The position numbers were made by a program, and so were the translations under genes. A DNA stretch of 64,000 nucleotides from an uncultured Dokdonia sp. (GTDB lineage: Bacteria; Bacteroidota; Bacteroidia; Flavobacteriales; Flavobacteriaceae), in assembly GCF_947496725.1 (NCBI RefSeq), contig NZ_CANMDS010000001.1:62001-126000 (forward strand). The letters are read 5' to 3'. Below, piece after piece: positions 1,781 through 61,911 of this stretch; the stretch's first letter is position 1, and each line of letters begins with the position of its first letter. Below the pieces are notes generated by a model, which saw only the letters and a program-made list of their open reading frames with translations, searched no databases and had not been told where the DNA came from.

Positions 1781-1794
1781 GCTTTCGCGAAAGC
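1781..1794. repeat. GCTTTCGCGAAAGC palindrome, intergenic copy
   Basis: Perfect 14-base copy (16 bases with flanking C/G) placed between the terminator at 1735-1772 and the stop codon of the aldehyde dehydrogenase at 1801. Confidence 0.95.
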
Positions 1795-1800
1795 GGATAC

Positions 1801-3156
1801 CTATTTTATATAAACCGTTTTTTTATTTACAAACTCTTGTATACCATCTAGCGATAGCTCCCTACCATAACCTGAAATCTTAGTCCCACCAAAAGGTAAG
1901 TTAGGATTACTCTTAACCATATCATTTACAAATACAGCACCATCGTCAAAAAGTGGTATAAGCTTCTCTATGCGCGCCTTATCTTGAGTAAAAATTGAGA
2001 CTCCTAACCCAAAATCTGACTGGTTTACAAGAACTACAGCTTCCTGATCATTTGTAAAGCGCGTCACTCCTATCACAGGCCCAAAGGTTTCTTCTTTAAA
2101 AATACTCATCTCTGGCGTTACTCCGATAACAATCGTAGGCTCAAAATATGCTTTCTGTCTATGACCTCCTACGAGCACTTTGGCACCAGCATCTACCGTA
2201 GCTTTGAGTTGCTCTTCAAGTTCTATAGCGAGGTCTTCACGTGCCATTACTCCTATGTAGGTATCTTTATCAAGAGGGTTACCAGACTTTAGTTGTGTTA
2301 CCGCTTTCGCGAAAGCGTCCATAAATTTATCATATACCTTATCGTGTAGCAAGAGTCTTTTACCAGCAATACAGCTCTGCCCCGTGTTTTGAAAACGTGC
2401 CTGAACACAAGTGGTCACTGTTTGCTCAAAATCACAATCATCAAAAACCACTAAGGCATTACTGCCTCCTAACTCAAGTACAGATTTCTTAATCTCACTA
2501 GCTGCTGTACTAGCCACGGCAGCACCAGCCGGTTTACTCCCCGTAAGAGTGATTGCCTTTATACGAGCATCACGCACAATATTTTCTATACGGTCACTAC
2601 CCACGGGCATATTTTGAAAAACACCTTTAGGTAAACCTGCTCGCTCAAAAACTCTCTGGATATTCTGGGCGCTTTGCATCACATTACTTGCGTGCTTAAG
2701 TACTCCTATATTACCCGCCATAAGCGCAGGCGCTATGAATCTAAAAACCTGCCAGAAAGGATAGTTCCAAGGCATTACGGCTAGCACAACTCCTATAGGC
2801 TCATAACGTACATAACTTTTTGTAGCGTCTGTTTCTATTGTTTTTGGTGCGAGGTGATCTGGAGCATTATCTGCATAGTATCTACATACCCAAGCACATT
2901 TTTCAACCTCGGCGATGGCTTGAGATATAGGCTTACCCATCTCAAGCGTCATTGTTTTTGCATACTCCTCCTTATTTTTCTCTAGCTCTAGTGCGACATT
3001 ATGTAAATTTTCTGCTCGTTCTGTAAAGCTTGTGGTACGCCATTGTAAAAAAGTCTCTTGCGCAAGTGAAAGTGTATCTTCTATCTCATTTAGATTAAAA
3101 GCCTTAATTGTTGCAACTTCTTCGTTATTATATGGGTTTGTTGAGGTAATATTCAT
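1801..3156 (-). CDS. NAD(P)-dependent aldehyde dehydrogenase, succinate-semialdehyde dehydrogenase type
   Basis: Aldehyde dehydrogenase superfamily protein of 451 residues, the usual length of the short succinate-semialdehyde dehydrogenase (Sad/GabD-like) group that oxidises semialdehydes to acids in the cytoplasm. The cofactor-binding stretch MPWNYPFWQ lies near residue 128, the general base Glu in ELGGSNALVV near 228 and the catalytic Cys in GQSCIAGKR near 261; the C-terminal GGTKISGYGRE motif is intact. The start at 3156 gives the normal N-terminus (MNITSTNPYNNEEV). It carries a copy of the GCTTTCGCGAAAGC repeat read as DAFAKAV in a surface-type helix. The substrate is inferred from family similarity only; no neighbouring GABA genes support it. 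Confidence 0.85.
   Translation of the reverse strand: MNITSTNPYNNEEVATIKAFNLNEIEDTLSLAQETFLQWRTTSFTERAENLHNVALELEKNKEEYAKTMTLEMGKPISQAIAEVEKCAWVCRYYADNAPDHLAPKTIETDATKSYVRYEPIGVVLAVMPWNYPFWQVFRFIAPALMAGNIGVLKHASNVMQSAQNIQRVFERAGLPKGVFQNMPVGSDRIENIVRDARIKAITLTGSKPAGAAVASTAASEIKKSVLELGGSNALVVFDDCDFEQTVTTCVQARFQNTGQSCIAGKRLLLHDKVYDKFMDAFAKAVTQLKSGNPLDKDTYIGVMAREDLAIELEEQLKATVDAGAKVLVGGHRQKAYFEPTIVIGVTPEMSIFKEETFGPVIGVTRFTNDQEAVVLVNQSDFGLGVSIFTQDKARIEKLIPLFDDGAVFVNDMVKSNPNLPFGGTKISGYGRELSLDGIQEFVNKKTVYIK
2303..2316. repeat. GCTTTCGCGAAAGC palindrome inside the aldehyde dehydrogenase gene
   Basis: Perfect copy, translated AFAKA on the minus strand (DAFAKAV), about 280 residues into the protein. 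Confidence 0.95.
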
Positions 3157-3318
3157 AGCCTATTTTTTTATAAAGTTACATAGCCCATAAGGGTTGAGCA
3201 TTATGGTTAAGAGCATTTTAACGGTAAGTAGGTAAAAGGTCTTAACAAAATGTGAATTGGTTTTGTTTTAAGAAAGTTTGCAAAGCTGAGACGTAATTTT
3301 AGAAAACCATCTAAATTT

Positions 3319-4221
3319 ATGAATATAACCCAACAAACTGAAACCACTACGATACCTGAAGCATTTAAAAATGCAGCAGATAATTTTATAGAGCAGTTAC
3401 CGCAAATTACAACAGGAATCCTCATAATAGTTATAGGAGTTCTTATAGCGGGCTGGATAGGTCGTTTTGCAAGAAAGAGAATTTCTGAAAGAACCGATGA
3501 CCCTTTAATGAGCAAATTTTTGGGCACCGCTATTAAGTATCTTGTAATAGTAATTACTATAATGCTGGCCTTGAGAGCAGCCGGACTAGGTGGTGTAGCA
3601 ACTGGAATACTTACTGCTGCTGGTGCAAGTGCTGTAGTACTAGGGTTTGCATTTAAGGATATAGGAGAAAACTTTATTGCAGGTATCATACTTGCTTTTA
3701 ATAGGCCCTTTGATGTAGATGATACGGTAATGGTTGGGTCTAACATTGGAAAAGTAAAGACGCTTGATTTAAGGTATACAAAGCTCAAAACTTTTGACGG
3801 TAAAGATGTTTATATCCCAAACAGTGATGTACTCACAGAGCCCGTAACAAATTATACAGAAGATGGTTTTTACAGATGGGATTTTGTAATAGGTATCGCT
3901 TATGAAGATAATATAGAAGGTGCAAAGGAAACGGTACTAAGGGCTCTTGAAGATGAGCCAAATGTAATAAATGATGATGTACACGAAAATTTTGTCATAG
4001 AAGACGAGCTAGCTACCAGCACTGTAAACTTAAAAGTTTTCTTTTGGGTAGATACTAAGGACTTTAGAAAACAAGCTATGATTACAAAGGGTAATGTGGT
4101 ACGCAAAGTAAAAGAAGCATTAGAAGATAATGGGTATTATATGCCTGCAGATATACAAGAAATTAAGCTATATGGTGGAGTAAAAGAATTTCCACTTAGC
4201 TTTAATAAGAATACTAATTAA
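3319..4221 (+). CDS. mscS: MscS-family small-conductance mechanosensitive channel
   Basis: A 300-residue inner-membrane channel that opens on membrane tension to release solutes during hypo-osmotic shock. The N-terminus has transmembrane segments at about 33-52 and 72-92 followed by the Gly/Ala-rich pore helix (GGVATGILTAAGASAVVLGFA, about 97-117), then the conserved FKDIGENFIAG and FNRPFDVDD stretches and the beta domain (IPNSDVLTEPVTNYT). Length and layout match the classic three-helix MscS of Escherichia coli (286 residues). The stop is 16 bases before the HPF gene, so the two are probably co-transcribed, a sensible pairing for stress survival. The first transmembrane helix typical of MscS is weak near the N-terminus. 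Confidence 0.9.
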   Translation: MNITQQTETTTIPEAFKNAADNFIEQLPQITTGILIIVIGVLIAGWIGRFARKRISERTDDPLMSKFLGTAIKYLVIVITIMLALRAAGLGGVATGILTAAGASAVVLGFAFKDIGENFIAGIILAFNRPFDVDDTVMVGSNIGKVKTLDLRYTKLKTFDGKDVYIPNSDVLTEPVTNYTEDGFYRWDFVIGIAYEDNIEGAKETVLRALEDEPNVINDDVHENFVIEDELATSTVNLKVFFWVDTKDFRKQAMITKGNVVRKVKEALEDNGYYMPADIQEIKLYGGVKEFPLSFNKNTN

Positions 4222-4237
4222 ATTAAAACAGATAACT

Positions 4238-4543
4238 ATGGAAATAATATTTGAATATCACGACGTAACTGCAAGTGCAGAGTTAGAAGCTTTCGCGAAA
4301 GCGCAATTAGAAAAACTTGCAGATAAATATCAATTTATACACAGAGCAGATGTATTTTTTAAACTAGAAAATACGTCAAGTGATGAGACAGGAAAAATCT
4401 CTGGTGTGCGCATAAGTATGCCTGGCCCAAGATTATTTGCCGAACATAGCTCTGACGACTTTTACCCTTCTTTAAAACAAGCTATTAAAGAAGTAGAAGT
4501 ACAGTTGAGAAAAAAGAAAGAAAAAATGCAAGAACATCATTAA
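4238..4543 (+). CDS. hpf: Ribosome hibernation-promoting factor, short form (HPF / sigma-54 modulation family)
   Basis: A 101-residue protein of the HPF/YfiA (ribosomal S30AE) family, which binds the decoding region of the 30S subunit in stationary phase and shuts down translation. The length fits the short form, without the C-terminal dimerisation domain of long HPF. Family features visible are the opening IIFEYHDVTASAELEAF, a central beta sheet with VFFKLE and the basic C-terminal helix (VEVQLRKKKEKM). The repeat palindrome codes for AFAKAQ in the first helix. It sits 16 bases after mscS and 11 bases before the next gene, forming a likely three-gene operon. Confidence 0.88.
   Translation: MEIIFEYHDVTASAELEAFAKAQLEKLADKYQFIHRADVFFKLENTSSDETGKISGVRISMPGPRLFAEHSSDDFYPSLKQAIKEVEVQLRKKKEKMQEHH
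4289..4302. repeat. GCTTTCGCGAAAGC palindrome inside hpf
   Basis: Perfect copy read as AFAKA (EAFAKAQ) in the first helix of HPF. Confidence 0.95.
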
Positions 4544-7343: not shown

Positions 7344-7357
7344 GCTTTCGCGAAAGC
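7344..7357. repeat. GCTTTCGCGAAAGC palindrome, intergenic copy
   Basis: Perfect copy 33 bases downstream of the ompA hairpin and 40 bases before the start of the next gene. Confidence 0.95.
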
Positions 7358-7978: not shown

Positions 7979-8662
7979 TTATAATATGGACTCGCCATTG
8001 AGATCTGTTGTGAGCACGTCACTCATATAATCAAAGTATGGTCGTAATAGTTTATAATGAGATACAACCGTCTCACTAAAATCACTTTGCATTACTTCCC
8101 TATCTGTATACTCCCTGCGCACCACAAAGCTTTTGAGTTTTATAAGGTCAATGTTTGGATCATTCTTATCAAAATCTCGTGGGGCAGTTTTTACAGCATT
8201 TGTGGTTTCAAATCCATTAGGAAACGCTTTCGCGAAAGCGGAATCATTAAGTATATCCCTTATCTCACTAGCATCAAGATGAAATTCTGTGCGTATGCGC
8301 TTTAAATCTGCAGTTTCTGGATTAAAGAAACCACCGGCTATAACAGATTTGTCTCCCGGTTCAATACGAAGATAATAACCGCCACGCCTGTGCGCTCCTG
8401 CCCTACTAAAACTTGCAGACCTATGCACATTATAAGGCGTCTTGTCCTTACTAAATCGTATATCACGATTGATACGAAAGATTTTGAGTTTCTCTATTTC
8501 ATCGGTTTCATTAAGTCCCGCTTTAATAGTAGCATAGAGGTCTTTCAAAACCTTCTCACTATCTTGATATCTAGATTTGTGGTCTGCCATCCACTCACGT
8601 GTATTATTCTTTTTAAGATCTTTAAGAAATGCGAGGGAAGCCCTAGGTACAGCTGTAATCAT
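7979..8662 (-). CDS. DUF2461 family protein (TIGR02453)
   Basis: A 227-residue cytoplasmic protein of unknown function. Family landmarks seen are LAFLKDLKKNNTREWM near residues 10-25, FRINRDIRFSKDKTPYN around 62-78, GGYYLRIEPGDK near 95-106 and GGFFNP near 111. These Arg/Lys/Trp-rich motifs are the DUF2461 signature. The repeat palindrome codes for SAFAKAFPNG in the middle. Its 3' end is one base from that of the convergent small membrane protein gene, leaving no room for a terminator between them. Confidence 0.85.
   Translation of the reverse strand: MITAVPRASLAFLKDLKKNNTREWMADHKSRYQDSEKVLKDLYATIKAGLNETDEIEKLKIFRINRDIRFSKDKTPYNVHRSASFSRAGAHRRGGYYLRIEPGDKSVIAGGFFNPETADLKRIRTEFHLDASEIRDILNDSAFAKAFPNGFETTNAVKTAPRDFDKNDPNIDLIKLKSFVVRREYTDREVMQSDFSETVVSHYKLLRPYFDYMSDVLTTDLNGESIL
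8226..8239. repeat. GCTTTCGCGAAAGC palindrome inside the DUF2461 gene
   Basis: Perfect copy read as AFAKA (DSAFAKAFP) on the minus strand. Confidence 0.95.
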
Positions 8663-10835: not shown

Positions 10836-11639
10836 ATGAAACAAATTGAAGGTTTTCTCAATACACCACCACTATGGACGGGCACGCAATTCTCCCTTAC
10901 TCAATTTGAAATACCACCTATAGACCTATCGACATTCATTGCTACTACTATACCACCTCATTTAAGATTAGGCCACCAGGTAGAATATATCTTCAAACAA
11001 CTACTAGATCATTCTGAAAGATATACCGTGCTGGCTCACAACATCCAGATTAAAAGAAAAAAAATAACACTAGGTGAACTTGATTTTGTGGTAGAAGACC
11101 GCTTTCGCGAAAGCGTAAAAATACACATTGAGCTTACCTATAAATTCTACATTATAGACACTGCAGTTACTAGCCCCATACACCAACTTATGGGACCCAA
11201 CCGAAAAGATCACTTCTACCTAAAAATGCAAAAAACAAGAGATAGGCAACTACCTCTTGCCTACTCTGCAGAAGGACTTGAGGCACTACAGTCTATAAAT
11301 GTTAACCCACAACAACTAGAACAACGCACACTTTTTATGGGTCAACTTTTTACGCCATTTAATAAAAACGTAATACTCCCAGAGGAAATAGATCCTCGCG
11401 CCATAATAGGTTACTGGATACAACTAGATAGCTTTTGCACCGCACGCTTTCTAGATTATAGATACTATATAACGACCAAGCCAGAATGGTTGCACAAGCC
11501 ACATACTGAAGTAAACTGGCTCAATCACAAAGAGGCACTAGTTATTATAAAAGAAAAACATACACTCAAGAGAGCACCGCTTGTATGGATACAAAAAGAT
11601 GACTCCACAGTTGATAAAGCCTTTGTAGTATGGTGGTAA
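10836..11639 (+). CDS. DUF1853 family protein, PD-(D/E)XK nuclease-like
   Basis: A 267-residue protein of the DUF1853 family. The recognisable pieces are LRLGHQVEYIFKQLL (about 46-60), the stretch ITLGELDFVVEDR near 88-100, and HIELTYKFYI near 110, which is followed by a HQLMGPNRKDHFYLKM segment. The spaced Glu-Asp then Glu-x-x-x-Lys pattern resembles the active site of PD-(D/E)XK nucleases, but this is inference and no activity is established. The repeat palindrome encodes DRFRESV exactly between the two halves of that pattern. A terminator precedes it, so it has its own promoter; the LytTR gene follows 60 bases later. Confidence 0.75.
   Translation: MKQIEGFLNTPPLWTGTQFSLTQFEIPPIDLSTFIATTIPPHLRLGHQVEYIFKQLLDHSERYTVLAHNIQIKRKKITLGELDFVVEDRFRESVKIHIELTYKFYIIDTAVTSPIHQLMGPNRKDHFYLKMQKTRDRQLPLAYSAEGLEALQSINVNPQQLEQRTLFMGQLFTPFNKNVILPEEIDPRAIIGYWIQLDSFCTARFLDYRYYITTKPEWLHKPHTEVNWLNHKEALVIIKEKHTLKRAPLVWIQKDDSTVDKAFVVWW
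11101..11114. repeat. GCTTTCGCGAAAGC palindrome inside the DUF1853 gene
   Basis: Perfect copy translated FRES (DRFRESVK), lying between the GELDF and HIELTYK motifs. Confidence 0.95.
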
Positions 11640-12595: not shown

Positions 12596-13846
12596 ATGAA
12601 AATCTCAATTTCCTACTTTCTTTTATTATTCTTTGTCTTTTTTGCTTTCGCGAAAGCGCAATCACAACAAACCTGTAATTGTAAAGATGAGCTTGTTTTT
12701 ATAGATTCTCACATTACAGAAATGACTTCTTTTAAAAAGCAAATGAAAGGAGACCTCAAAGAAGCCTATGAGCAAACTTTAAACGAATTAAGTAAAGAAC
12801 TAACAACGAGTATGCCTATTGCAGAGTGCTATAGAACTCTTAATATATTACTCTCTCAAGTAAAGGATAAACACGCACATATCAAACATATAAAACCGAG
12901 TATACTTGCTAGCACCTTACTAACAGATAAAGATATAAACCAATACCGTAAGAGTAAATCGTTTGCAAATCATCCTAAGTATGATGAATCGCTCACTTCT
13001 CTTGAAAAGGAGCTTAAAAAAGTACCGTACAGAAGTGTAGAAGGCGTTTACCAGAAGGAAGGTGTATTTACCATAGGTGTTGTAAAGAATGGAAACCTTT
13101 ATAGCGGTGTGGTACTCGCCTCACAATCGCCTTTATGGATACCTGGTCAAATTGCTTACACAATTATTCCCATTGGAGAGGTTATGTATGATGTTATGAC
13201 TAGTGATATACCGGGAGGAACACTGAGATTTATAAGGGCTTTATACTTACACAATGGTACACTATGGCATCTCAAAAAAGAAAATACAAGTCCATATGCG
13301 GCGGTGAGCAAAGAAAGCGGAAATTGGTATTTTAAACAAATCTCACCTAATACACAGTACCTATATATGGGCTCGTTTTCTAATAGTGAAGAAAATGTAG
13401 CAGCTTTTACTTCATTTTACAACTCACATAAATCAAAAATTACGGCTCAAAACATAATTATAGATTTACGCAACAATGGAGGTGGTAACTCAAAATATTC
13501 TGATCCATTTTATAAAATACTTAAAAAGAGTAAAGCAAATGTCTATGTCATTACCAACTTCTGGTCTGCCAGTAATAGCGAGCAATTTACCCTCAAATTA
13601 AAGAGTTTAAAAAACACAACTCACTTAGGTATGCGCACCTATGGTGCGATAGCTTATGGATCTAATTATGGTAAGCTCTTAGAAAGCCCCTCTGGTCTAT
13701 TTGCCATTTACCCCACAGATATGAACTTTCATAAATATATAGATTATGAATATGTAGGGATACAACCAGACATTGTACTAGATTATAATGAAGATTGGAT
13801 TAAGCAAACGCTAGATTATATTAAAAAACAAGATGCTGAATATTGA
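12596..13846 (+). CDS. Exported S41-family peptidase-like protein
   Basis: A 416-residue exported protein. Residues 1-22 are a signal peptide (hydrophobic run FLLLFFVFFAFA) whose end AFAKA|QSQQ is coded by the repeat palindrome. Near residue 289 is IIIDLRNNGGGNS, the S41 (C-terminal processing protease/tricorn) signature, and near 325 is ITNFWSASNSEQF, corresponding to the catalytic Ser segment T-x-S-A-S-E of S41. No PDZ domain is seen. It may cleave envelope or periplasmic proteins; the substrate is unknown. It is flanked by the LytTR gene and a bidirectional terminator, and may be regulated by it. Confidence 0.8.
   Translation: MKISISYFLLLFFVFFAFAKAQSQQTCNCKDELVFIDSHITEMTSFKKQMKGDLKEAYEQTLNELSKELTTSMPIAECYRTLNILLSQVKDKHAHIKHIKPSILASTLLTDKDINQYRKSKSFANHPKYDESLTSLEKELKKVPYRSVEGVYQKEGVFTIGVVKNGNLYSGVVLASQSPLWIPGQIAYTIIPIGEVMYDVMTSDIPGGTLRFIRALYLHNGTLWHLKKENTSPYAAVSKESGNWYFKQISPNTQYLYMGSFSNSEENVAAFTSFYNSHKSKITAQNIIIDLRNNGGGNSKYSDPFYKILKKSKANVYVITNFWSASNSEQFTLKLKSLKNTTHLGMRTYGAIAYGSNYGKLLESPSGLFAIYPTDMNFHKYIDYEYVGIQPDIVLDYNEDWIKQTLDYIKKQDAEY
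12644..12657. repeat. GCTTTCGCGAAAGC palindrome in the S41 signal peptide
   Basis: Perfect copy read as AFAKA, forming the Ala-x-Ala end of the signal peptide. A second case is in the M1 peptidase at 49886-49899. Confidence 0.95.
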
Positions 13847-18184: not shown

Positions 18185-18198
18185 GCTTTCGCGAAAGC
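18185..18198. repeat. GCTTTCGCGAAAGC palindrome, intergenic copy
   Basis: Perfect copy 22 bases after the AI-2E gene and about 70 bases before ppgK. Confidence 0.95.
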
Positions 18199-21948: not shown

Positions 21949-21962
21949 GCTTTCGCGAAAGC
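21949..21962. repeat. GCTTTCGCGAAAGC palindrome, intergenic copy
   Basis: Perfect copy within the 20-base palindrome TACGCTTTCGCGAAAGCGTA (21946-21965), just after the small membrane protein gene. Confidence 0.95.
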
Positions 21963-23416: not shown

Positions 23417-24172
23417 ATGAAATACTATATACTACTACTTACAACGCTTATATTAATAGGTTGCAATACAGAACCTAAAACTATAGAACAGCCCGCTGTT
23501 ACTAATGAGGTTGATAACGCTTTCGCGAAAGCAAAACCAGTACTAGACTCAACGCGTTACAACGTAGCCTTCTTAATTATGGATGGCACTTTTAACACAG
23601 AGCTTACGGCACCTTTTGACATTTTTCAGCATACTATTTATCGAGAGAATATAAAAGCGATGAATGTTTTTACAGTAGCAAATACCCTACAACCCGTGCG
23701 TACCTTTGAGGGGATATATCTCCTACCAGACTTTGACTATACAAGCGAAGACCTACCTAAAATAGATATACTAGTTGTACCAAGTGCAGAGCATCACCTA
23801 GATACAGATCTGGAGGATGAAGCGCTCATTAACTTTGTAAAAAAAGTAGATAAAGAAGCTATGTATGTAACCTCACATTGCGATGGTGCTTTTGTACTAG
23901 CAAAGGCAGGTTTACTAGACAACAGTGTCTCAACAACCTTCCCGAGTGACATCGATAAGATGCGTGAGACGTTTCCTAATCTTGATATTAGAAAAGATGT
24001 ATTATTTGTGCACGATGGGAAGTATATCACCTCTGCTGGAGGTGCTAAAAGTTTTGAAGCCGCTCTCTATCTCACCGAACTTCTTTACGGCGCAGAAATT
24101 GCAAGATCACTAGCTGGAGGATTAGTGATAGACTGGAAACTAGATGATGTACCGCACCTCATAACAAAGTAA
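23417..24172 (+). CDS. DJ-1/PfpI-like lipoprotein
   Basis: A 251-residue lipoprotein with a DJ-1/PfpI (glutamine amidotransferase-like) domain. ATG at 23417 is chosen because it gives a lipoprotein signal, MKYYILLLTTLILIGC, whose Cys starts the mature protein; the longer frame from 23363 overlaps the MFS gene and would bury this signal. The domain follows from about residue 50 (YNVAFLIMDGTFN) with ILVVPSAEHH, then VTSHCDGAFVLAKAG containing the candidate nucleophile Cys near 158, and SAGGAKSFEAALYL. Similar domains precede AraC regulators in other bacteria. The repeat palindrome encodes NAFAKAKP just after the lipid anchor. Function at the envelope is unknown. Confidence 0.8.
   Translation: MKYYILLLTTLILIGCNTEPKTIEQPAVTNEVDNAFAKAKPVLDSTRYNVAFLIMDGTFNTELTAPFDIFQHTIYRENIKAMNVFTVANTLQPVRTFEGIYLLPDFDYTSEDLPKIDILVVPSAEHHLDTDLEDEALINFVKKVDKEAMYVTSHCDGAFVLAKAGLLDNSVSTTFPSDIDKMRETFPNLDIRKDVLFVHDGKYITSAGGAKSFEAALYLTELLYGAEIARSLAGGLVIDWKLDDVPHLITK
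23519..23532. repeat. GCTTTCGCGAAAGC palindrome inside the DJ-1 lipoprotein gene
   Basis: Perfect copy read as AFAKA (NAFAKAKP) in the linker between lipid anchor and DJ-1 domain. Confidence 0.95.
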
Positions 24173-26085: not shown

Positions 26086-27171
26086 ATGACGCTTCAACAA
26101 AGAATTAACGCTTTTAGTAAACTCGGGACTTTCTTGAGTCAGTTTTCACGCACTAATATTGCTCAAAAAGAGGGAGTTGCACACAATGACCTATTTTTTG
26201 ACGGAATGAAACATCAGTTTAAACTCGCGCGAGAAAACAATGGGTGGTTTACGCAAGAAAATATTCTTTTTGCACTTGAGGGATGGGCAGCACTCCTTAC
26301 CGAAGAAAAACTTAGCGAGTGGATGAGCGGTTATAATGACGCTTTCGCGAAAGCGCAATCCCAAAAAACCTTTGCTATCATTATGGCAGGTAATATACCG
26401 CTAGTAGGTTTTCACGACTTTTTATGTGTACTTATTGCAGGTCAAAAAGTTGCAATAAAACAATCTTCAAACGATAAGCACCTACTACCCTACCTAGCCA
26501 AATATCTGGAATATGTAGCACCAGACTTTAAAGGTCGTATCTCATTTACAGAAGAAAAACTACCTGCACACGATGCTGTGATTGCTACGGGAAGTGATAA
26601 TACGGCAAGATATTTTGAATATTACTTTGGTAAGAAGCCTAACATTATAAGAAAAAACAGAAACTCTGTGGCCATACTTACGGGTGATGAGAGTGAAGAG
26701 CAACTTAAAGCGCTAGGTGAAGATATATTTAGATACTACGGTCTAGGCTGTCGCAATGTTTCTAAATTACTGGTGCCAGAAGGGTATAACTTTGATGCAT
26801 TTTTTAAAGCTATCTACTCGTGGAGCGATGTAATGAATGACGCAAAGTATGCAAACAACTATGACTATAATAAGGCAGTATACCTTATGAGTCTTTTTGA
26901 CCTACTAGAAAATGGGTTTTTAATGCTTAAGGAAGATGAAAGTTACGGCTCTCCTATTGCAACGTTATTTTATGAAAAATATGAGTCAAAAGAATCTCTT
27001 GATTTAAAACTTTCTCAAGATGCAGATAAAATACAGTGCATTGTAGGTGATGATAAAAATCTACAAGGTTTTACATCACTTATACCATTTGGAAAGACTC
27101 AAAAACCGAATCTTCAAGATTATGCTGATGGAGTTGATACTATTGCATTTTTAGTATCGATTTTGCCATAA
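26086..27171 (+). CDS. LuxC-like acyl-CoA reductase (aldehyde-dehydrogenase superfamily)
   Basis: A 361-residue member of the acyl-CoA reductase family (LuxC-related). Features are the nucleotide-binding segment IIMAGNIPLVGFHDFLCVLIAG (about 99-120, in part KTFAIIMAGNIPLVG), TGSDNTARYFEYYFG near 168-182 and the candidate catalytic Cys in GLGCRNVSKLLVPEG near 222. No lux genes lie nearby, so this is not evidence for bioluminescence; such proteins are common in flavobacteria and always adjacent to ferredoxin and serC. The repeat palindrome codes for NDAFAKAQS at residues 84-92. It starts a probable unit ending before serC, 67 bases downstream. Confidence 0.75.
   Translation: MTLQQRINAFSKLGTFLSQFSRTNIAQKEGVAHNDLFFDGMKHQFKLARENNGWFTQENILFALEGWAALLTEEKLSEWMSGYNDAFAKAQSQKTFAIIMAGNIPLVGFHDFLCVLIAGQKVAIKQSSNDKHLLPYLAKYLEYVAPDFKGRISFTEEKLPAHDAVIATGSDNTARYFEYYFGKKPNIIRKNRNSVAILTGDESEEQLKALGEDIFRYYGLGCRNVSKLLVPEGYNFDAFFKAIYSWSDVMNDAKYANNYDYNKAVYLMSLFDLLENGFLMLKEDESYGSPIATLFYEKYESKESLDLKLSQDADKIQCIVGDDKNLQGFTSLIPFGKTQKPNLQDYADGVDTIAFLVSILP
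26341..26354. repeat. GCTTTCGCGAAAGC palindrome inside the acyl-CoA reductase gene
   Basis: Perfect copy read as AFAKA (DAFAKAQS). Confidence 0.95.
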
Positions 27172-39088: not shown

Positions 39089-40045
39089 ATGTCTCAACAA
39101 ACACATAAAGAAAGCTCTAAAACTCGTGATGAGGTACGCATTTTTTGCCCCGCAACTGTTGCAAACGTAAACTGCGGTTTTGATTCGCTAGGTTTTGCCC
39201 TTGAGGGCATAGGTGATGAGATGGTGTTTAAAAAAACTATCAGTAAGGGCGTTACTATCACAAAAATTACGGGTGATGATTTACCTATGGAGGCGCATAA
39301 TAATGTAGCCGGCGTGGCAGGTAATGCAATGCTAGAAGCCATACAAGCAGATTTTGGCGTAGCTATAGAAATTCATAAAAAAATACGATGTGGTTCTGGT
39401 ATAGGCAGCAGCAGTGCAAGCGCGGCTGGTGCTGTTTACGGCATTAATCAATTACTTGATGAGCCATTATCTAATCTTGAACTCACTCGCTATGCAATGA
39501 AGGGTGAAGCACTTGCAAGTGGTAATGAACACGCAGATAATGTGGCTCCTTGTATTTATGGAGGTACAACGCTGGTTACCGGCTACTCTCCTCTTAAAAT
39601 TATAGCGCTCCCACCTATGGAAACGGTATACGTAGGTATACTACACCCGCATATAACTATAAAAACCAAAGAAGCAAGGGAGATTTTACCCAAAACGGTA
39701 CCTCTTACAGATGCCATTAAGCAATCGCAACATCTAGCCGGTTTTGTCGCTTCACTATATGAATGGGATAAAGAACTTTTTACAGAGAGTATACAAGATG
39801 TGCTTGTAGAGCCCCACCGCAAGCAATTGATTCCGCATTTTGATGAGATACGCACTATTTCTAAAGAGAACCAATGCATTGCCTTTGGCATATCTGGTAG
39901 TGGGCCTAGTATGTTTTGTCTCGCTTTCGCGAAAGCGCATATAGACTCATATCTAGCTAAGAGTGTAGCCTTGTATCAAGAAAACAGTCTCCAAGTAGAC
40001 AGCTACTCCAGCCGAATTTCTGGCACGGGTTGCCATATCATATAA
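39089..40045 (+). CDS. thrB: Homoserine kinase
   Basis: A 318-residue GHMP kinase that phosphorylates homoserine before threonine synthase. RIFCPATVANVNCGFDSLGF is the N-terminal family motif, IRCGSGIGSSSASAAGAVYG the ATP-binding loop (near 101-120) and ISGSGPSMFCLAFAKA the third motif, where the repeat palindrome codes for AFAKA. It starts 7 bases after thrA. The usual third gene, thrC, is not found next to it: a terminator and a convergent amidohydrolase follow. Confidence 0.95.
   Translation: MSQQTHKESSKTRDEVRIFCPATVANVNCGFDSLGFALEGIGDEMVFKKTISKGVTITKITGDDLPMEAHNNVAGVAGNAMLEAIQADFGVAIEIHKKIRCGSGIGSSSASAAGAVYGINQLLDEPLSNLELTRYAMKGEALASGNEHADNVAPCIYGGTTLVTGYSPLKIIALPPMETVYVGILHPHITIKTKEAREILPKTVPLTDAIKQSQHLAGFVASLYEWDKELFTESIQDVLVEPHRKQLIPHFDEIRTISKENQCIAFGISGSGPSMFCLAFAKAHIDSYLAKSVALYQENSLQVDSYSSRISGTGCHII
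39923..39936. repeat. GCTTTCGCGAAAGC palindrome inside thrB
   Basis: Perfect copy read as AFAKA (LAFAKAHI), just after the SGSGPS motif. Confidence 0.95.
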
Positions 40046-44450: not shown

Positions 44451-45527
44451 TCAAAAAGTCTCTGGGAACTGCTTGTCATAGTTCACCAGTAATGCAACCA
44501 TATAACTGTAACTTTCTAAACCACCCGGCTGGTTATTTGCCTTAAGGTAGTTACTATAAAAGAGATCAAATAAGGGCTCAAGCGGGTTATCCATCTCATC
44601 CCAAAAATCTCTAGACATTTGATATTGGGCAAGTATACCAGGATGTACCTTACTTTTTAATAAATCGCCTAGCTCTTTGTCTCGGCGGTACACATCATTT
44701 AAACAATACCTAAGTGCAAAAATACTTCCCGAGTATTGAAAATGTATGTCCTCATTATTAAGCGTAGCCATAACTGCCATAAAGTTTGCTTCATTTTCTT
44801 TTGCAAACCCTAGCTGGTGGGCTTGCTCGTGACAAGATATAACAGGCCACCTGTGAGCGGGTACCATCCCATTTATTTGCGCCTCATTTGTGATGGGGTT
44901 GAGATAACCACTATATCCCATTACAGATAATGGATATCGCAATAATGAGTTTTTTATACTTTTAGGAGGGTATTGCAAGGAAGGAAACTTCTGTTGTAAA
45001 GCTTCATAGCCGTTGAGGGTTTGATTAAATATTTCCGCTTTCGCGAAAGCGTAATCAACCACCGCACTATCATTTACGGCAAGTGTCGTGTGTAATCTAT
45101 TGCTATTATTAAGAAGTTTTTCTGTAAGTGATACAAGCTCTTGTGTGGTATACTCATTATCTATTGACAAGGATTTGTGTAGTGGTAAGCGGTAATAATT
45201 CATCCCCCAAAGCAGGTGAAAAGCAAAATATACAATAGAAAGCATCGCAAGGGTACGTAGTAAGAACGACTTGATGGTCTTAAATCTATTTCTTACCAAG
45301 ATTACAATCTCACGTACCGCAAGCACGATTAAAACCGCATACATAATATCTCCAAAGGAAAACGGTAACCACCCAAAAGCATATCTAAAACCTTTTGAAA
45401 TCACAGGGTATATCCCATTACTGTACCACTGCTCTACAGCTTGTGGATATAAAGCTAGCAGTCGTACAACGAGCATTTGTACAAATAATAGTAATCCAAT
45501 TATGAGCGTTATGCGATTCTTTTTCAA
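44451..45527 (-). CDS. DUF3810 family membrane metallopeptidase-like protein
   Basis: A 358-residue protein with two or three N-terminal transmembrane segments (about 5-28, 50-75 and 90-112) and a soluble C-terminal domain. HEQAHQLGFAKENEANFMAV near 234-253 is an H-E-x-x-H zinc motif with a downstream Glu, the gluzincin pattern, so a metallopeptidase activity is plausible. The repeat palindrome encodes DYAFAKAEIF. It lies between the amidohydrolase pair and the glutamate-synthase-like gene and is transcribed alone from its own start. Confidence 0.8.
   Translation of the reverse strand: MKKNRITLIIGLLLFVQMLVVRLLALYPQAVEQWYSNGIYPVISKGFRYAFGWLPFSFGDIMYAVLIVLAVREIVILVRNRFKTIKSFLLRTLAMLSIVYFAFHLLWGMNYYRLPLHKSLSIDNEYTTQELVSLTEKLLNNSNRLHTTLAVNDSAVVDYAFAKAEIFNQTLNGYEALQQKFPSLQYPPKSIKNSLLRYPLSVMGYSGYLNPITNEAQINGMVPAHRWPVISCHEQAHQLGFAKENEANFMAVMATLNNEDIHFQYSGSIFALRYCLNDVYRRDKELGDLLKSKVHPGILAQYQMSRDFWDEMDNPLEPLFDLFYSNYLKANNQPGGLESYSYMVALLVNYDKQFPETF
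45047..45060. repeat. GCTTTCGCGAAAGC palindrome inside the DUF3810 gene
   Basis: Perfect copy read as AFAKA (DYAFAKAEI). Confidence 0.95.
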
Positions 45528-47838: not shown

Positions 47839-49935
47839 TTATAGTACTTCTATTCGTTTGAGATAAGCTATTTCCTTTTCGGTAAGATAGCTGGCAAGCT
47901 CTTTTACAACAGCAAGATTTTTAGGGTTTTTAAGCTGCTCTTTGAGTAGTTTTCTTGCGCTTTCGCGAAAGCGCCATACGTGATGCACACTCGCCTCTAC
48001 AAGTGATTGTAAGCTTTCCTTTTCAAAAGAGTCTAGCTGGCGCAGGTAGTTAAAGGCGTTTTGTCGCAACTGGTAAGCTTGTTCTGGTTGTGTGTAGCTT
48101 ATGAGTTCTTGATATCGCCCAAAAGATTGTGACGGCTTATACTCTGGTGTTGCAAGTGATAGTGCAAGCCACAAGGTACGTAAGTTCCCGTCTTGAAACC
48201 CAAACTGCTCATCCATCATATCAAGCACCTTGCGTTGCGATGCAGGATCATTGCGCTGCTGGTGGTACACCCATAATTTAATCATTGCCTGCTCGCGGGT
48301 AACATAGCTATCATCTTTAAGCAACTTGTAAAAATCTGTAGCAAGTGATTGGGGTACATTTTCTAGCGATGTAGCTACAGCCTGACGTATAAAGACGTTA
48401 TCAGAACTTATAGCTTGTTTAAACACAGGCAGTGTCGCGTTTATAGATTCTTGAGCCGCTTGGTATATCGCCTCTTGCCCTAGGTAGTCGTTACCAGAGG
48501 CTACAGCATCCATAAGTTGTGTAAACTTATTTGATAACGGAGCTTCTCTACCTGACTGTAATCTAAAGTACTGTTGCATAAATTTGCTCTTTTTAAGCGA
48601 CTGTAAGGCATCTTCTGCTTGAAAAGCCGACTGGTATAGCCAGTTCTTCTTAAAGTCTGTGAGATCTACGGTAGCTAGCGCCTCAACCTCAATCATAAAT
48701 TCTTCTGTAGTTACATTTTTATATGCATACTTTTTAAGATAATTCTGCACAGCGAGATCAAAGGTGTTTACCCCTACTCGCTCTCGTAATATGTGTATTG
48801 CCCAAGCACCTTTTTGATAGTAGGTAAGACTACTTCCTCCAGAAGCAACAAGCTTTTGCCCCTTGCCTTGATCGCTTAAAGCTCGTAACTGCTCTGCAGT
48901 TTCAAAGAGTTTAAAGTAAAAATAGTCCTCTCCAAAGATCTCTCGTTCGGCGAGAAGTGCATAGTAGGTAGCAAATCCCTCTTGTAGCCAGTGGTGCTCA
49001 CTTTTAGTCTCTGTCACAAGATCTCCAAACCACTGGTGTGCAAGCTCGTGTGCATTTACATTTACATAATTACGATCTGTAAAGCCTATTGCATCTACCA
49101 TAAAATCGTCAGAAAAGATGGTGCAACTCGCATTCTCCATACCTGCATACAAGAAGTCTTTTACAGGTACTTGCTTATACACCTTAAAAGGAAACGGCAC
49201 GCCTACTTTACGTTCTAAAAAGTCAAAAACCTCCTTGGAGTATCTGTAAGTAGCTTCTACCTGCAAAGAGTCTTCTGGATAATAGTAATACTCTAAAGGT
49301 ACACCAGACGAAGCCGTAGCTGTTTTTACATCATAATTTCCCACCACAAGCGCCACCAGATAGCTTGCTATAGGCTTTTCCATATCAAATTCTGAAATTA
49401 GCACGTTATAATCCTTTAATGTTTTTGCAGCTACGCCATTTGCAACAACTGTATGCCTATTGTGTCCCGTCACCTTAAGATCAAATATGATTTTATCATT
49501 CATATCATCTATACTAGGCAACCAGTGTGAGGTATACTTACCTTGACCTTGCGTCCAGAACTGCTCACTCCCGTTATTATTTACAAAATATGCGGCCTGT
49601 GTAGGCTGCACTGAGTAGTCAAAAGTGGCTTTATAGGTCACCCCAGCCTTAAACGTCCCATTAAAGACTATGGTGGTATCTGTTGCACTTATGGCAAATG
49701 TGGGTGTTTTATCTACGAGCTGCATCGCCTTTCCATCCATCACAACTTGATTTACGTCTTGTAATGCGGTAAAGGTTGTAGTAACTTTTCCTAAAACAGA
49801 ATTTGTGTCAAAATCAAGCGATAAGGAAGCGGTAACTTGCTTAAAATCTATGGTTTTGGTTTGAGTAGATATTTCTTGGGTATACGCTTTCGCGAAAGCG
49901 GACAACGATATAATAGCGAGCAATAGGTATTTCAT
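47839..49935 (-). CDS. M1-family aminopeptidase
   Basis: A 698-residue exported aminopeptidase. ATG at 49935 begins the signal peptide MKYLLLAIISLSAFAKA, whose end is coded by the repeat palindrome; the longer frame from 50046 crosses the recG start region and has a non-signal N-terminus. M1 features are FLYAGMENASC (substrate-binding G-x-M-E-N) near residue 268 and HELAHQWFGDLVTE with zinc ligands near 293-297. The C-terminal part is helical HEAT-like. A second repeat copy near the C-terminus encodes WRFRESARK. It is convergent with the gene at 47320 (adjacent stops) and divergent from recG. Confidence 0.9.
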   Translation of the reverse strand: MKYLLLAIISLSAFAKAYTQEISTQTKTIDFKQVTASLSLDFDTNSVLGKVTTTFTALQDVNQVVMDGKAMQLVDKTPTFAISATDTTIVFNGTFKAGVTYKATFDYSVQPTQAAYFVNNNGSEQFWTQGQGKYTSHWLPSIDDMNDKIIFDLKVTGHNRHTVVANGVAAKTLKDYNVLISEFDMEKPIASYLVALVVGNYDVKTATASSGVPLEYYYYPEDSLQVEATYRYSKEVFDFLERKVGVPFPFKVYKQVPVKDFLYAGMENASCTIFSDDFMVDAIGFTDRNYVNVNAHELAHQWFGDLVTETKSEHHWLQEGFATYYALLAEREIFGEDYFYFKLFETAEQLRALSDQGKGQKLVASGGSSLTYYQKGAWAIHILRERVGVNTFDLAVQNYLKKYAYKNVTTEEFMIEVEALATVDLTDFKKNWLYQSAFQAEDALQSLKKSKFMQQYFRLQSGREAPLSNKFTQLMDAVASGNDYLGQEAIYQAAQESINATLPVFKQAISSDNVFIRQAVATSLENVPQSLATDFYKLLKDDSYVTREQAMIKLWVYHQQRNDPASQRKVLDMMDEQFGFQDGNLRTLWLALSLATPEYKPSQSFGRYQELISYTQPEQAYQLRQNAFNYLRQLDSFEKESLQSLVEASVHHVWRFRESARKLLKEQLKNPKNLAVVKELASYLTEKEIAYLKRIEVL
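47959..47972. repeat. GCTTTCGCGAAAGC palindrome, C-terminal M1 copy
   Basis: Perfect copy read as FRES (WRFRESARK). The same gene holds another copy at 49886-49899. Confidence 0.95.
49886..49899. repeat. GCTTTCGCGAAAGC palindrome in the M1 signal peptide
   Basis: Perfect copy read as AFAKA at the end of the signal peptide (SLSAFAKAYTQ), parallel to the S41 gene copy. Confidence 0.95.
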
Positions 49936-52791: not shown

Positions 52792-53042
52792 CTTAGCCGT
52801 CACAGCACTCCAGGCATACTGTTTCTAGGCACACACCACTATATCACACCTCAAACTTTAATAAACACCTACCTCTTTTCCAGTCAAACGATTATCTTAC
52901 AACTCAGTAACAACAACTTTAAAAAAGACGTGACAATCACTTTATTAAGTTAAGTACAAAATATGCGATTATAAGTAGTAAAATGGGGATATATACGCTT
53001 TCGCGAAAGCGTAAAAAACTACACAGATACTCTCTCTTCTCC
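52792..53042. other. Intergenic region before pheT
   Basis: AT-rich region with no credible gene. It contains a perfect copy of the palindrome at 52997-53010 and ends at the pheT promoter. No leader peptide rich in Phe was seen. Confidence 0.6.
52997..53010. repeat. GCTTTCGCGAAAGC palindrome, intergenic copy
   Basis: Perfect copy within TACGCTTTCGCGAAAGCGTA (52994-53013), 33 bases upstream of the pheT -33 box. Confidence 0.95.
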
Positions 53043-55722: not shown

Positions 55723-55736
55723 GTAGAAAAAAAGAG

Positions 55737-56459
55737 ATGCTATTAACCAGAACAAACATTCACAACAAATTATTACGTGAGCGCAGCAAGAGTGAGCAAG
55801 AGCAAGATATTCTGGCTCAAGTAGAAGCTATTTTTACACAAGACCGCTTTCGCGAAAGCGGAATCTTAAAAACCCTTAATAGTCCTTCTGGCTCAGGTTA
55901 CAATGAGTTTAACATAGACCTACTGGCTGCCGAAAATATATTCCACATTAAACAAATAGAAAAGATTTGTATAGATTACAGACTTCGTTTTCTAGACACA
56001 AAGTACTTTAAAGGTAAATATCCACAGCAAGCGCTAGACAATATTAAATATCTTGAAAACACGCACAATACAGAGCTAGATGGTTTTAAAATCATAGCTC
56101 CGTCAAAAATGTTTGTACTAGAAAAAGCAGACGACCCTTTACTTTTTGCCCCTATGGGTAATGGCTATTACTACCTCATACATAAATGGGGAAATGACCT
56201 TAACCCCTTTAGAAAGCAGTGGGCTTGGTCTTTTAAATCTTTTGAAAACCTTATCGTAACCACACTTTTAATAAGCCTAATAGCCACTATGCTTATACCA
56301 GATGGTCTTTTTACAAAGAATCAAGATTTAAGTCAAGATGTTATGGTCTTTTTCTTTATGTTTAAGTCCATCGCAGCGATTGTGTTATTTTATGCCTTTG
56401 CACTAGGTAAAAATTTCAACAAAGCGATATGGAATAGCACTTACGATAAAACAAGATAA
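55737..56459 (+). CDS. Membrane protein of unknown function
   Basis: A 240-residue protein. The start at ATG 55737 (MLLTRTNIHNKLLRERS) is preferred to ATG 55680 because a promoter-like element lies between them. The first 160 residues are soluble with a helical N-terminus; two hydrophobic helices near 167-190 (LIVTTLLISLIATMLIP) and 202-222 (MVFFFMFKSIAAIVLFYAF) make a C-terminal hairpin. The repeat palindrome encodes DRFRESGIL near residues 39-47. No recognised family. It is 4 bases upstream of the DUF2007 gene, which also has two C-terminal helices. Confidence 0.72.
   Translation: MLLTRTNIHNKLLRERSKSEQEQDILAQVEAIFTQDRFRESGILKTLNSPSGSGYNEFNIDLLAAENIFHIKQIEKICIDYRLRFLDTKYFKGKYPQQALDNIKYLENTHNTELDGFKIIAPSKMFVLEKADDPLLFAPMGNGYYYLIHKWGNDLNPFRKQWAWSFKSFENLIVTTLLISLIATMLIPDGLFTKNQDLSQDVMVFFFMFKSIAAIVLFYAFALGKNFNKAIWNSTYDKTR
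55846..55859. repeat. GCTTTCGCGAAAGC palindrome inside the membrane protein gene
   Basis: Perfect copy read as FRES (DRFRESGIL). Confidence 0.95.
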
Positions 56460-56463
56460 CTAT

Positions 56464-58763: not shown

Positions 58764-58778
58764 AAATTAATACCCTAT

Positions 58779-60191
58779 ATGAAATATCACATCGCCCTTC
58801 TCTCGTTACTTGTAGTATGTACAAGCAGTTGCATCTCTGAAGACAAAGACAAGGCAGACGGAACCTACATAGGCGGTGAGATTATTAACCCTGTACAGAG
58901 CTATGTGCTTTTGCGCAAAGGTGAAAACGTTACAGATAGTATACCCCTAGATAGACGTAATAGATTTTTACATAAACTAGAAAATTTTGAAAGCGGCCTT
59001 TACCGCTTTGAGCACGGAGAACACCAGATTGTTCATATAGAGGAAGGTGACAGTATACTATTGCGTGTTAATACAAAAGAGTTTGATGAGTCTTTAAGCT
59101 TCTCTGGCTACGGTTCAGAAAAAAGTACTTTTCTTATAGATATGTACTTGCACTGGGAGTCTGAAAACAACAACATAAAAAGAAAGTATCAGAAAAATCC
59201 TCAAAACTTTCAAAAGACATTAGACTCAATGTCTATTATACATCAAGAAGAATTAAGCGATTTCTTAAATAATCCCGAAGCCACCTACTCAGATGATTTT
59301 ATAGATATTGCCCGAGCGGTTTCAAAACTGGATAACTATCAACGCAAGGAGCTTTACCCCTTTGCTCATTATGGGAAAGATAAACTTAACTTCATTAAAA
59401 CACTGCCAGGTGACTTTTACCGCTTTCGCGAAAGCGTAGATATAAATAATCCTAACCTTGATGAGTTATACGGTTTTAGAAGATATCTGGGATCATACAT
59501 AAACCATCTAAGTTTTTTAAGATATGGTGACCAGTCTAAGTACGACCGTATGTCTTACGTGCATAATCACCACCAGATTGCTGTTATAGATAGTATTATT
59601 ACAAATGAGCCGCTCAAGGAAAGACTTCTCAACCAGATGGCACGTATTTTTATTGCAAACAGCAATAACTCTCAAGAGGTTGCCACCCTGTTTGATGAGA
59701 TAAAGGCCGTTTCTTCATCTCAAGAAACCATTGAAAACATAGATGCATTGTACTCTAACAATGAGAGTATGCAGGCCGGAAACACGATACCAGATGTTCT
59801 TATTGTAGATACTAACCTTGCAATGAGCACACTATCAAGCCGTATTACAAAGCCTACTGTGCTATACTTCTGGTCTTACTCGAGAAAGTCACATATGAAC
59901 AACTCGCACCAAAAAGCAAAAGATTTACAAAGGAAATACCCAGAGTTTAACTTTATAGCGATTAATGTAAATAAAGAACAAGATAAGTGGATACGTCATC
60001 TAGATAACAAGAATTACAACTCCCTTATGGAATACCAACTTGCAAAGCCTGCTCTGGGCAGAAAGCAACTAGTGCTCAATGATATTAACAAGACAATAGT
60101 GCTAGATAAAAAAGGTGTGATTCTTAATAGCCACGCAAACATACACAGCTCAAAATTTGAGAATGAGCTCCTTGCCTATTTAAATCAATAG
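58779..60191 (+). CDS. Exported lipoprotein with a thioredoxin-like C-terminal domain lacking CxxC
   Basis: A 470-residue lipoprotein. ATG at 58779 gives the signal MKYHIALLSLLVVCTSSC, Cys near 18, followed by ISEDKDKAD. The middle is a helical domain of about 300 residues of DUF4369-like type; residues from about 335 form a TlpA/thioredoxin fold (DVLIVDTNLAMSTLSSRITKP, then VLYFWSYSRKSHMNNSHQKA) in which the redox C-x-x-C is replaced by YSRKSH, so disulfide chemistry is unlikely. The repeat palindrome encodes YRFRESVDI. Transcribed alone between the ABC-F gene and a terminator. Function unknown. Confidence 0.75.
   Translation: MKYHIALLSLLVVCTSSCISEDKDKADGTYIGGEIINPVQSYVLLRKGENVTDSIPLDRRNRFLHKLENFESGLYRFEHGEHQIVHIEEGDSILLRVNTKEFDESLSFSGYGSEKSTFLIDMYLHWESENNNIKRKYQKNPQNFQKTLDSMSIIHQEELSDFLNNPEATYSDDFIDIARAVSKLDNYQRKELYPFAHYGKDKLNFIKTLPGDFYRFRESVDINNPNLDELYGFRRYLGSYINHLSFLRYGDQSKYDRMSYVHNHHQIAVIDSIITNEPLKERLLNQMARIFIANSNNSQEVATLFDEIKAVSSSQETIENIDALYSNNESMQAGNTIPDVLIVDTNLAMSTLSSRITKPTVLYFWSYSRKSHMNNSHQKAKDLQRKYPEFNFIAINVNKEQDKWIRHLDNKNYNSLMEYQLAKPALGRKQLVLNDINKTIVLDKKGVILNSHANIHSSKFENELLAYLNQ
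59422..59435. repeat. GCTTTCGCGAAAGC palindrome inside the thioredoxin-fold lipoprotein gene
   Basis: Perfect copy read as FRES (YRFRESVDI). Confidence 0.95.
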
Positions 60192-60950: not shown

Positions 60951-60998
60951 GCTAAAAGTGATAAGTCGTTTCCCTTACAAGGATTAATTGTTTGTTAA

Positions 60999-61802
60999 CT
61001 ACAAGCCGTAATGGTTGAGCAACAGTTTTTCATACCAAGTATCTGGCAGCATACGCTTAAGTGCTATACTAAAACGTTGCATAAAGAACCCAACTCGATA
61101 ATGCACTTTTGGATTTTTTGATTCCATAACGCGTTTTATGACTTTTGCCATAATAGCGGTGTCCATTCCTTTATCTACGTGCTCATCCATAAGAGCTAGC
61201 GTGTTCTTATAGTTATCTTTATAAGGTGAGTTATCTAGTACGGGGGCGTGATATCTACCTGCAGCAATATTGGTTGCAAAATCTCCTGGTGCAACGGTAG
61301 TCATCTTCACATTAAACTCTTTAAGTTCCATACGGTATGCCTCTGTAGTGATACCTAGTGCACCTTTTGTAGCTGAGTAAATACCACGATACGGTAACCC
61401 CATATATCCAGCTATAGATGTAATATTTATAACCATACCAGAGCGCTGTGCTCGCATAGTAGGTAATACTGCTTTAATCACTTCTAGCGCGCCAAAGTAA
61501 TTTGTTTCAAAAACACGTCTCGTCTCTGTATCTGGAGTTTCTTCAAGAGGTCCGGTTATACCCATACCTGCATTATTTATAAGGTAGTCTATTTTACCTT
61601 CGGCTTTGAGAAGTGTGGCTACTGCTGCCATTATGGTTTCTGGCTTTGTTACATCAAGTGCGAGCATATGTACACCATTTTCTACACTATTTTTAGGATT
61701 ACGGCTTGTACCATAGACGGTGTATGAATGATTTACTAAAAACTGCGCGATGGCTTGCCCTATACCAGAAGAGGCACCGGTGATTAAAACTACTTTTGAC
61801 AT
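60999..61802 (-). CDS. Short-chain dehydrogenase/reductase
   Basis: A 267-residue SDR of the classical group. NAD(P) binding VVLITGASSGIGQAIA at 4-19, the NNAG motif in YLINNAGMGITG near 87, catalytic Ser in INITSIAG near 134 and the Tyr-x-x-x-Lys in YSATKGAL near 147. The substrate is unknown; the C-terminal tail ending RMLPDTWYEKLLLNHYGL is unusual. A -7 promoter element (CAAAGATA on the plus strand, 61822-61829) lies 20 bases upstream. It is followed by the transaldolase gene 81 bases away. Confidence 0.9.
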   Translation of the reverse strand: MSKVVLITGASSGIGQAIAQFLVNHSYTVYGTSRNPKNSVENGVHMLALDVTKPETIMAAVATLLKAEGKIDYLINNAGMGITGPLEETPDTETRRVFETNYFGALEVIKAVLPTMRAQRSGMVINITSIAGYMGLPYRGIYSATKGALGITTEAYRMELKEFNVKMTTVAPGDFATNIAAGRYHAPVLDNSPYKDNYKNTLALMDEHVDKGMDTAIMAKVIKRVMESKNPKVHYRVGFFMQRFSIALKRMLPDTWYEKLLLNHYGL

Positions 61803-61821
61803 ATGTTATTTTAGAGTGGGG

Positions 61822-61829
61822 CAAAGATA
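61822..61829 (-). promoter_or_regulatory. Promoter -7 element for the SDR gene
   Basis: TATCTTTG on the minus strand, 20 bases from the start codon, a full match to TAnnTTTG; no -33 box found at the expected distance. Confidence 0.4.
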
Positions 61830-61897
61830 AGAAGATATGACCTTTACAGATACCTTCGTTTCAAATTACTAAGGAAGAGTTGATGTGTTGTTATTAC

Positions 61898-61911
61898 GCT
61901 TTCGCGAAAGC
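61898..61911. repeat. GCTTTCGCGAAAGC palindrome, intergenic copy
   Basis: Perfect copy in a longer palindrome TTACGC..GCGTAA (22 bases), abutting the terminator of the thioredoxin gene. Confidence 0.95.

Follow-up and report, generated by a model that had tools for sequence, protein, structure and literature searches.

Few words that recur along a whole chromosome have a function that can be put to the test. Among those known, the DNA uptake sequences, called uptake signal sequences (USS) in the Pasteurellaceae and DNA uptake sequences (DUS) in the Neisseriaceae, are evenly spread, non-palindromic words present in hundreds of copies, enriched in non-coding DNA, set in biased flanks and confined to a narrow taxonomic range. 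One study describes their origin by point mutation, their placement in tolerant positions and how sharply numbers fall between exact copies and those with one mismatch (PMC1939737). Sites of the parS/Noc type are palindromes with TTTC...GAAA halves and occur at only a few positions. Known Chi words, the signals of RecBCD and AddAB, are short, asymmetric and non-palindromic, and are over-represented, widespread and possibly self-marking. The HIP1 element of cyanobacteria (GCGATCGC) is a highly iterated perfect palindrome found genome-wide, the role of which is still debated; a model of the orphan methylase and mismatch-repair type has been proposed for it (PMC4390886). Here we analyse a further word of this sort, the 14-letter palindrome GCTTTCGCGAAAGC, starting from a 64-kb window of DNA from an uncultured Dokdonia sp. 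(positions 62001-126000 on contig 1; the genome, labelled G000, measures 3.29 Mb).

The kind of this word lies between HIP1 and the uptake sequences, its anatomy being nearer to the latter. With the uptake sequences it shares copies in the hundreds, non-coding enrichment, turnover by point substitution, a steep mismatch profile, biased flanks and a narrow taxonomic range, but the known uptake sequences are shorter, whereas the Dokdonia word is a palindrome of 14-16 bp in a member of the Bacteroidota, and its bias in uptake is here a matter of inference. With HIP1 it shares the high iteration, the perfect palindrome and the genome-wide occurrence, but the word itself is longer and, as a preliminary description of the window had already stated, different in sequence, no methylase of the two families searched is shared among its carriers, and it shows a strong preference for non-coding DNA and a mirror-symmetric flank bias. 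The halves resemble those of parS/Noc sites, with two bp less between them than in what we take to be the parS/Noc consensus, but the Dokdonia word occupies hundreds of sites rather than a few and parS words are kept separately. A search of 5.39 million open papers with the 12-base core found no match, and searches with shorter words and on related topics gave no description of the element among the matches listed, in keeping with the preliminary description, whose author knew of no named element with this sequence.

The window has GCTTTCGCGAAAGC 21 times in exact form, the number first reported, and once more as a near-copy. When up to two mismatches to GCTTTCGCGAAAGC are allowed there are 23 matches against 0.14 expected, and none of 100 dinucleotide shuffles of the window reached this figure, the largest shuffle count being 2. 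The palindrome extends to its 16-base form at 18 of the 22 places (near-copy included), again as first counted, and to at least 18 bases at seven of them, where the preliminary description had found only five; its start positions also hold for every site but one, which it placed at 45047 and which begins at 45037. Across the whole genome (3,291,590 bases) there are 905 exact copies and none of a reversed-pattern control, so the excess is not restricted to the window, and the HIP1-like genome-wide behaviour claimed for the word is borne out. In 446 kb of G000 the 12-base core occurs 136 times, where dinucleotide frequencies predict 0.02.

The invariant unit is 14 bp long. In a 326 kb sample of G000 it is preceded by C in 87 of 99 exact copies and followed by G in 93 of 99, giving the usual form CGCTTTCGCGAAAGCG; one-mismatch and two-mismatch copies in this sample number only 3 and 12. 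The step from exact to one-mismatch copies is very sharp in two Dokdonia genomes, at 99:3 in G000 and 214:9 in G397. Read 5' to 3' towards the word, both flanks have little C and much G and T over about 25 bp, in mirror image, with C falling from 19-20% far off to 5% at positions -10 to -5 (268 half-sites); this bias persists in strictly intergenic sites (104 half-sites) and is found again in G242, a genome of the genus labelled g11, and more weakly in G190, from the third word-rich genus. Past the four adjoining bases the flanks have no base-by-base conservation and only a biased composition, which characterises the sites taken together rather than each position or each site.

Outside the full word, the inner hexamer TCGCGA is found at 1.5-1.8 times its expected frequency in the word-rich genomes (G000, G397, G242 and G190), at 1.16 times in Leeuwenhoekiella and at 0.74 in others, and the excess copies are possibly decayed or nascent sites. 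Avoidance of half-sites was considered and dropped: although CTTTCG and TTTCGC seemed scarce outside the word, their ranks of 316 and 469 among 2071 hexamers in G000 are unremarkable. Both are low among the hexamers of G242 (ranks 84 and 79 of 2035).

Comparison of relatives indicates how closely the word is kept. G000 and G397 share 94.0% identity in an alignment of 307,574 bases. Whichever of the two is taken as the reference, 90 of 92 scorable sites are intact in the other (four further sites at block edges were set aside), where chance retention of a 14-mer at this identity would be 0.94^14 = 0.42. Only 2 of 1,344 motif positions have changed, against 3-4% of the four adjoining bases and 6-8% of positions beyond, and all four of the site differences between these genomes are single substitutions. 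G400, a Dokdonia genome 83% identical to G000 over 93 kb, keeps 22 of 29 G000 sites, and 22 of its own 23 sites are kept in G000; single substitutions account for four of these eight differences and a triple substitution for one, and the other three lie in poor alignment. The intergenic copy at 18185..18198 is exact in all six aligned Dokdonia genomes, with strongly diverged flanks in four, and stands unchanged between species about 75% identical. At 38246..38259, in the aspartokinase-homoserine dehydrogenase gene 36646-39081 (thrA; Pfam), the window has the near-copy ACTTTCGCGAAAGC with one substitution, whose 12-base core was reported earlier at 38247; of 7 named Dokdonia loci, 6 have the exact word at this site, and 8 of 8 Leeuwenhoekiella loci lack it and have similar but ordinary codons at its position.

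Sites turn over by point substitution, in tolerant places. An element that inserts or copies itself was rejected, as in clear alignments sites differ by substitution and not by inserted blocks, and the selfish repeat suggested in the preliminary description is unsupported because relatives differ by substitutions in place and the flanks are unrelated. The same observations bear on the wider proposal that the word is an RNA hairpin (a terminator or processing site) or a self-copying miniature repeat, which its self-complementarity and the 41 of 99 sites that are intergenic would suit; coding copies in all three frames, 10 of the 41 intergenic sites lying between divergent genes and the lack of any Rfam match in the window speak against it as well, and we regard it as very improbable.

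Copies are found about every 3.5 kb along the chromosome, with a mean spacing of 3.2 kb in the 326 kb of G000. To call this spacing irregular, as was done at first, is misleading, since its coefficient of variation (CV) is 0.46, where random placement gives 0.99 +- 0.10 and the lowest of 5000 simulations 0.71. Two further genomes behave alike, with CVs of 0.46 in G397 (260 kb) and 0.43 in G242 (300 kb); values of 0.90 (G190) and 0.72 (G397a) were discarded as they came from separate stretches joined together. The variance-to-mean ratio of site counts per 20 kb is 0.13, and each of 20 stretches of 20 kb in G397 has 3-9 sites, with no sampled part lacking them. The 41 intergenic sites stand out against a non-coding share of 8.7% of the sequence under a simple model of open reading frames (ORFs), and are distributed over all four gene arrangements (13, 10, 9 and 9). 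Coding sites use all three frames with a preference for the one read as AFAKA (33 of 58), and fall singly in 56 genes and as a pair in one. The 31 one-mismatch copies are positioned relative to exact ones like members of the lattice, which fits equally a mark kept by exchange and sites that are each selected directly.

The taxonomic range of the word was surveyed in 397 genomes of the family, from 237 genera, and in 395 of the order, both even draws from larger groups, so that further rich genera may exist. At least one copy of the 14-mer is present in 80 of the 397 family genomes, and only six of these are rich, namely two Dokdonia genomes (905 and 857 copies), three from genus g11 (578, 664 and 609) and one from genus g191 (408). 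These are 3 of the 237 sampled genera, and the remaining family genomes carry 0 to 19 copies. In the draw from the order, abundance of the 16-base form is limited to the three rich genomes included (711, 630 and 495; next highest 12); beyond the family it appears once in each of three genomes. The closest relative of the thrA protein of the window comes from a Dokdonia metagenome genome (98% identical), which places the window in Dokdonia, the genus already named in the preliminary description, and the nearest named genus by this protein is Leeuwenhoekiella (71-72% identity). The surroundings of thrA hold 31 copies in 115 kb over 7 Dokdonia loci and none at 40 loci of other genera, including 8 of Leeuwenhoekiella (179 kb).

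Word-poor genera hold small clusters of sites, as seen in 16 stretches (L021-L036) from 10 such genomes. These stretches have 31 site-bearing ORFs, of which 14 were scanned; seven match efflux, metal-ATPase or Fur families and the rest are a kinase, a mannosyltransferase, pirin and similar proteins. A pair of sites 933 bp apart within one outer-membrane efflux gene recurs in four genera, and such identical spacing suggests DNA received from word-rich donors. The ratio of exact to one-mismatch copies in the word-poor stretches is 36:10, against 214:9 in G397, which suggests decay where the system is missing, in stretches that were chosen for exact copies.

The two-fold symmetry of the 14-bp word and its low tolerance of change point to a dimeric reader of double-stranded DNA. 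A shared methylase was considered for this role and rejected, since of the two families searched in 34 genomes (PF01555 and PF00145; other methylase families were not searched) neither is common to the word-rich genomes. No genome among 10 of Dokdonia has PF01555 above the cut-off; four of them have PF00145, which is absent from G000, G242 and G190. The methylase target first suggested is accordingly unsupported for these two families, and this weighs, together with the intergenic position of 41 of the 99 sites and the sharp 14-bp unit, against a model of the HIP1 type, in which an orphan methylase together with mismatch repair would create or maintain the word, an explanation which the highly iterated palindrome itself recalls and which we consider decidedly improbable. 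A ParB/Noc reader was likewise rejected: G000 has one ParB, and two to three ordinary parS-type words are kept in each of the 34 genomes. In every one of these flavobacterial genomes a pair of parS-type words is found about 1.9-2.1 kb apart (e.g. G000 C2:420614 and 422523), which is a conserved two-site centromere layout. With these methylases and ParB set aside, a self-mark for uptake or exchange and a chromosome-organising lattice are left.

A second oddity of these genomes is their avoidance of CATG, which is absent from the window (206 expected) and occurs 4 times in 326 kb of G000 (1033 expected), twice in a further 120 kb and 23 times in 730 kb of G397 (2300 expected), and is also nearly absent from stretches of G404 and G206. 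The tetramer is present in the Dokdonia genomes G400, G399, G402 and G403. Its near-absence looks like extreme avoidance of the restriction type, in a genome without PF01555 or PF00145 methylases, and it is independent of the palindrome because loci of the four CATG-bearing genomes also carry the palindrome. In 400 kb of G242, the single g11 genome examined, hexamers with ACCCG/CGGGT (ACCCGG, CACCCG, CGGGTA and ACCCGT) are almost absent, a further case of word avoidance.

We tentatively favour, as possible rather than probable, the reading of GCTTTCGCGAAAGC as a palindromic mark of self DNA used in uptake and kept by biased exchange; as between an uptake signal and a nucleoid protein, the pattern fits the uptake signal best, because the preference for cheap places, the turnover by substitution, the even spread and the steep mismatch profile all match uptake sequences. 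The word, usually as CGCTTTCGCGAAAGCG, would be the recognition site of a symmetric DNA-binding protein that marks chromosomal DNA as a cell's own, most likely for the selective uptake and recombination of fragments bearing the mark. A chance mutation that completes a word would then spread in the population, one that breaks a word would be replaced, and little would be gained from another word in the neighbourhood of an existing one, the outcome being an even lattice with a spacing of roughly the fragment length and with sites at the least costly places. We infer the dimer that reads the word, competence in Dokdonia and the bias of uptake towards the word. A bolder version, which we hold to be doubtful, would make this the first two-fold symmetric uptake signal, a palindromic, dimer-read self-mark of the flavobacterial uptake machinery that tiles chromosomes at set spacing in three genera.

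A new type of DNA-uptake machinery is known in the family, as it is classified in the cited papers. A DUF5689 protein and its outer-membrane partner are essential for transformation in Riemerella anatipestifer, which has a distinct uptake machinery (PMC8459023). Homologues of DUF5689 and of the partner barrel, matched by domain and gene order and not against Riemerella sequences, are present in all 14 examined genomes of the three rich genera, and DUF5689 genes adjoin an outer-membrane protein gene in Dokdonia, g11 and g191. Riemerella columbina prefers its own DNA, with no established signal; the k-mer table of the study ends at 10 bases and shows only A-rich or T-rich words (PMC7965970). Exchange between Dokdonia species is visible in G400, where, along G000 C1:7550-96800, tracts 95-98% identical to G000, detected at 0.6-9.2 kb, stand in a background of about 65-90% identity as a sharp mosaic. 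Stretches of G400 more than 93% identical to G000 total 30.5 kb and contain 2 CATG, against 144 in the 61.9 kb outside them, and as these tracts are, like G000, nearly without CATG, they are recent imports into G400 from a CATG-poor Dokdonia lineage.

Several observations count against an uptake mark. We know of no uptake sequence that is palindromic. The step from exact to one-mismatch copies is less sharp outside the first two genomes (73:11 in G400, 83:13 in G242 and 50:15 in G190), and sites in G400 are less even (CV 0.70 in 360 kb). Word-poor genera have the uptake genes just as often (DUF5689 in 32 of 34 genomes, the barrel in 77 of 80), and the barrel of G190, at 47% identity, is not especially like that of G242. 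A swap of receptors was rejected after a search with the G242 barrel in 80 genomes, with an AddA-like helicase as control, did not single out the word-rich genera; thus no receptor variant is seen to track the motif. Among the imported tracts 5 of 9 bear a site, against 5.1 expected from random tracts, and the 18 recombination breakpoints lie a median of 706 bp from a site against 868 bp by chance (p = 0.81, at low power). For the uptake idea itself, the comparison of receptors and that of imported tracts are neutral. The literature gave nothing on competence in Dokdonia among the matches listed. In a scan of viral contigs, 11 of at least 120 loci carry two or more copies, and one phage contig (L177, IMGVR_UViG_2617271332_000001), with S49-peptidase, amidase and depolymerase-like genes, has three exact words 3-4 kb apart.

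A chromosomal reader is the main rival, and a strong one. The sites would then form a lattice for a homodimeric chromosome-organising or segregation protein, each site being selected directly since the protein would have to be anchored at intervals of a few kilobases. Perfect two-fold symmetry, low tolerance of change, even spacing and extreme conservation would all be expected of such a lattice, as would the sites in every sampled part of the G397 chromosome and in all four intergenic arrangements. There is no candidate protein, however, the sole ParB of G000 having its ordinary parS words; Leeuwenhoekiella does without the lattice; and a 5.5 Mb Dokdonia genome appears hardly richer in sites than the 3.3 Mb G000, by first-look seed counts that are only a proxy, contrary to a chromosome-wide structural need. 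On balance we find this explanation rather unlikely.

The orientation of the flanks raises a third idea, a two-way signal like Chi at which a helicase-nuclease of the AddAB/RecBCD type halts from either side and loads RecA on the adjacent G/T-rich strand. RecA prefers GT-rich DNA, the G/T-rich strand lies 5' of the word in both directions, the even spacing would suit the role, and the AddA-like helicase is present in 80 of 80 genomes. That helicase is, however, equally present where the word is absent, the known Chi words are short and lack palindromic symmetry, and the 18 breakpoints, of low power, show no link to Dokdonia sites; a Chi-like role is in our view improbable.

The nearly unchanged word amid drifting DNA suggests genome-wide reading, perhaps of a tag for DNA of the cell's own kind. 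Longer and sharper than HIP1, it occurs in small-genome marine bacteria whose close relative Leeuwenhoekiella is free of it and is thus a natural control. An uptake mark, if true, would explain the exchange among Dokdonia species and give a genetic handle on them, whereas a nucleoid lattice, if true, would reveal a new chromosome-organising protein.

No strand is assigned to the palindromes of the window. Beside the copy at 18185, intergenic copies are found at 1781..1794 (16-bp palindrome), 7344..7357, 21949..21962 and 52997..53010 (both 20-bp palindromes) and 61898..61911 (22 bp, the longest of the window). Within genes, the peptide AFAKA is encoded by the copy at 2303..2316 in an aldehyde dehydrogenase gene (1801-3156, minus strand), which is exact in 8 of 8 aligned Dokdonia genomes, and by that at 4289..4302 in a ribosome-hibernation (S30AE) gene, exact in 6 of 8, with other codons in G403 and G206. 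AFAKA is likewise read at 8226..8239 in coding sequence (CDS) 7979-8662 (minus strand), at 12644..12657 close to the start of an S41 peptidase gene, at 23519..23532 in CDS 23363-24172 (14 bp only), at 26341..26354 in CDS 26086-27171, at 31440..31453 in ORF 31230-31562 (a copy that G206 has too), at 39923..39936 in CDS 39089-40045 and at 45037..45050 in CDS 44451-45527 (minus strand). The M1 peptidase gene 47839-50046 (minus strand) has two copies, one at 47959..47972 read as RFRES and a second at 49886..49899 read as AFAKA. RFRES is also the peptide at 11101..11114 (CDS 10836-11639), 55846..55859 (CDS 55680-56459) and 59422..59435 (CDS 58749-60191). The copy at 34004..34017 falls early in ORF 33966-34595, in its 5' part, unless the gene starts later, in which case the copy immediately precedes the gene. 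The stretch 61873..61936, around the longest palindrome, gives an example of a site with its flanks of about 25 bp, for which the set as a whole shows the C-poor, G/T-rich composition when each strand is read 5' to 3' up to the word.

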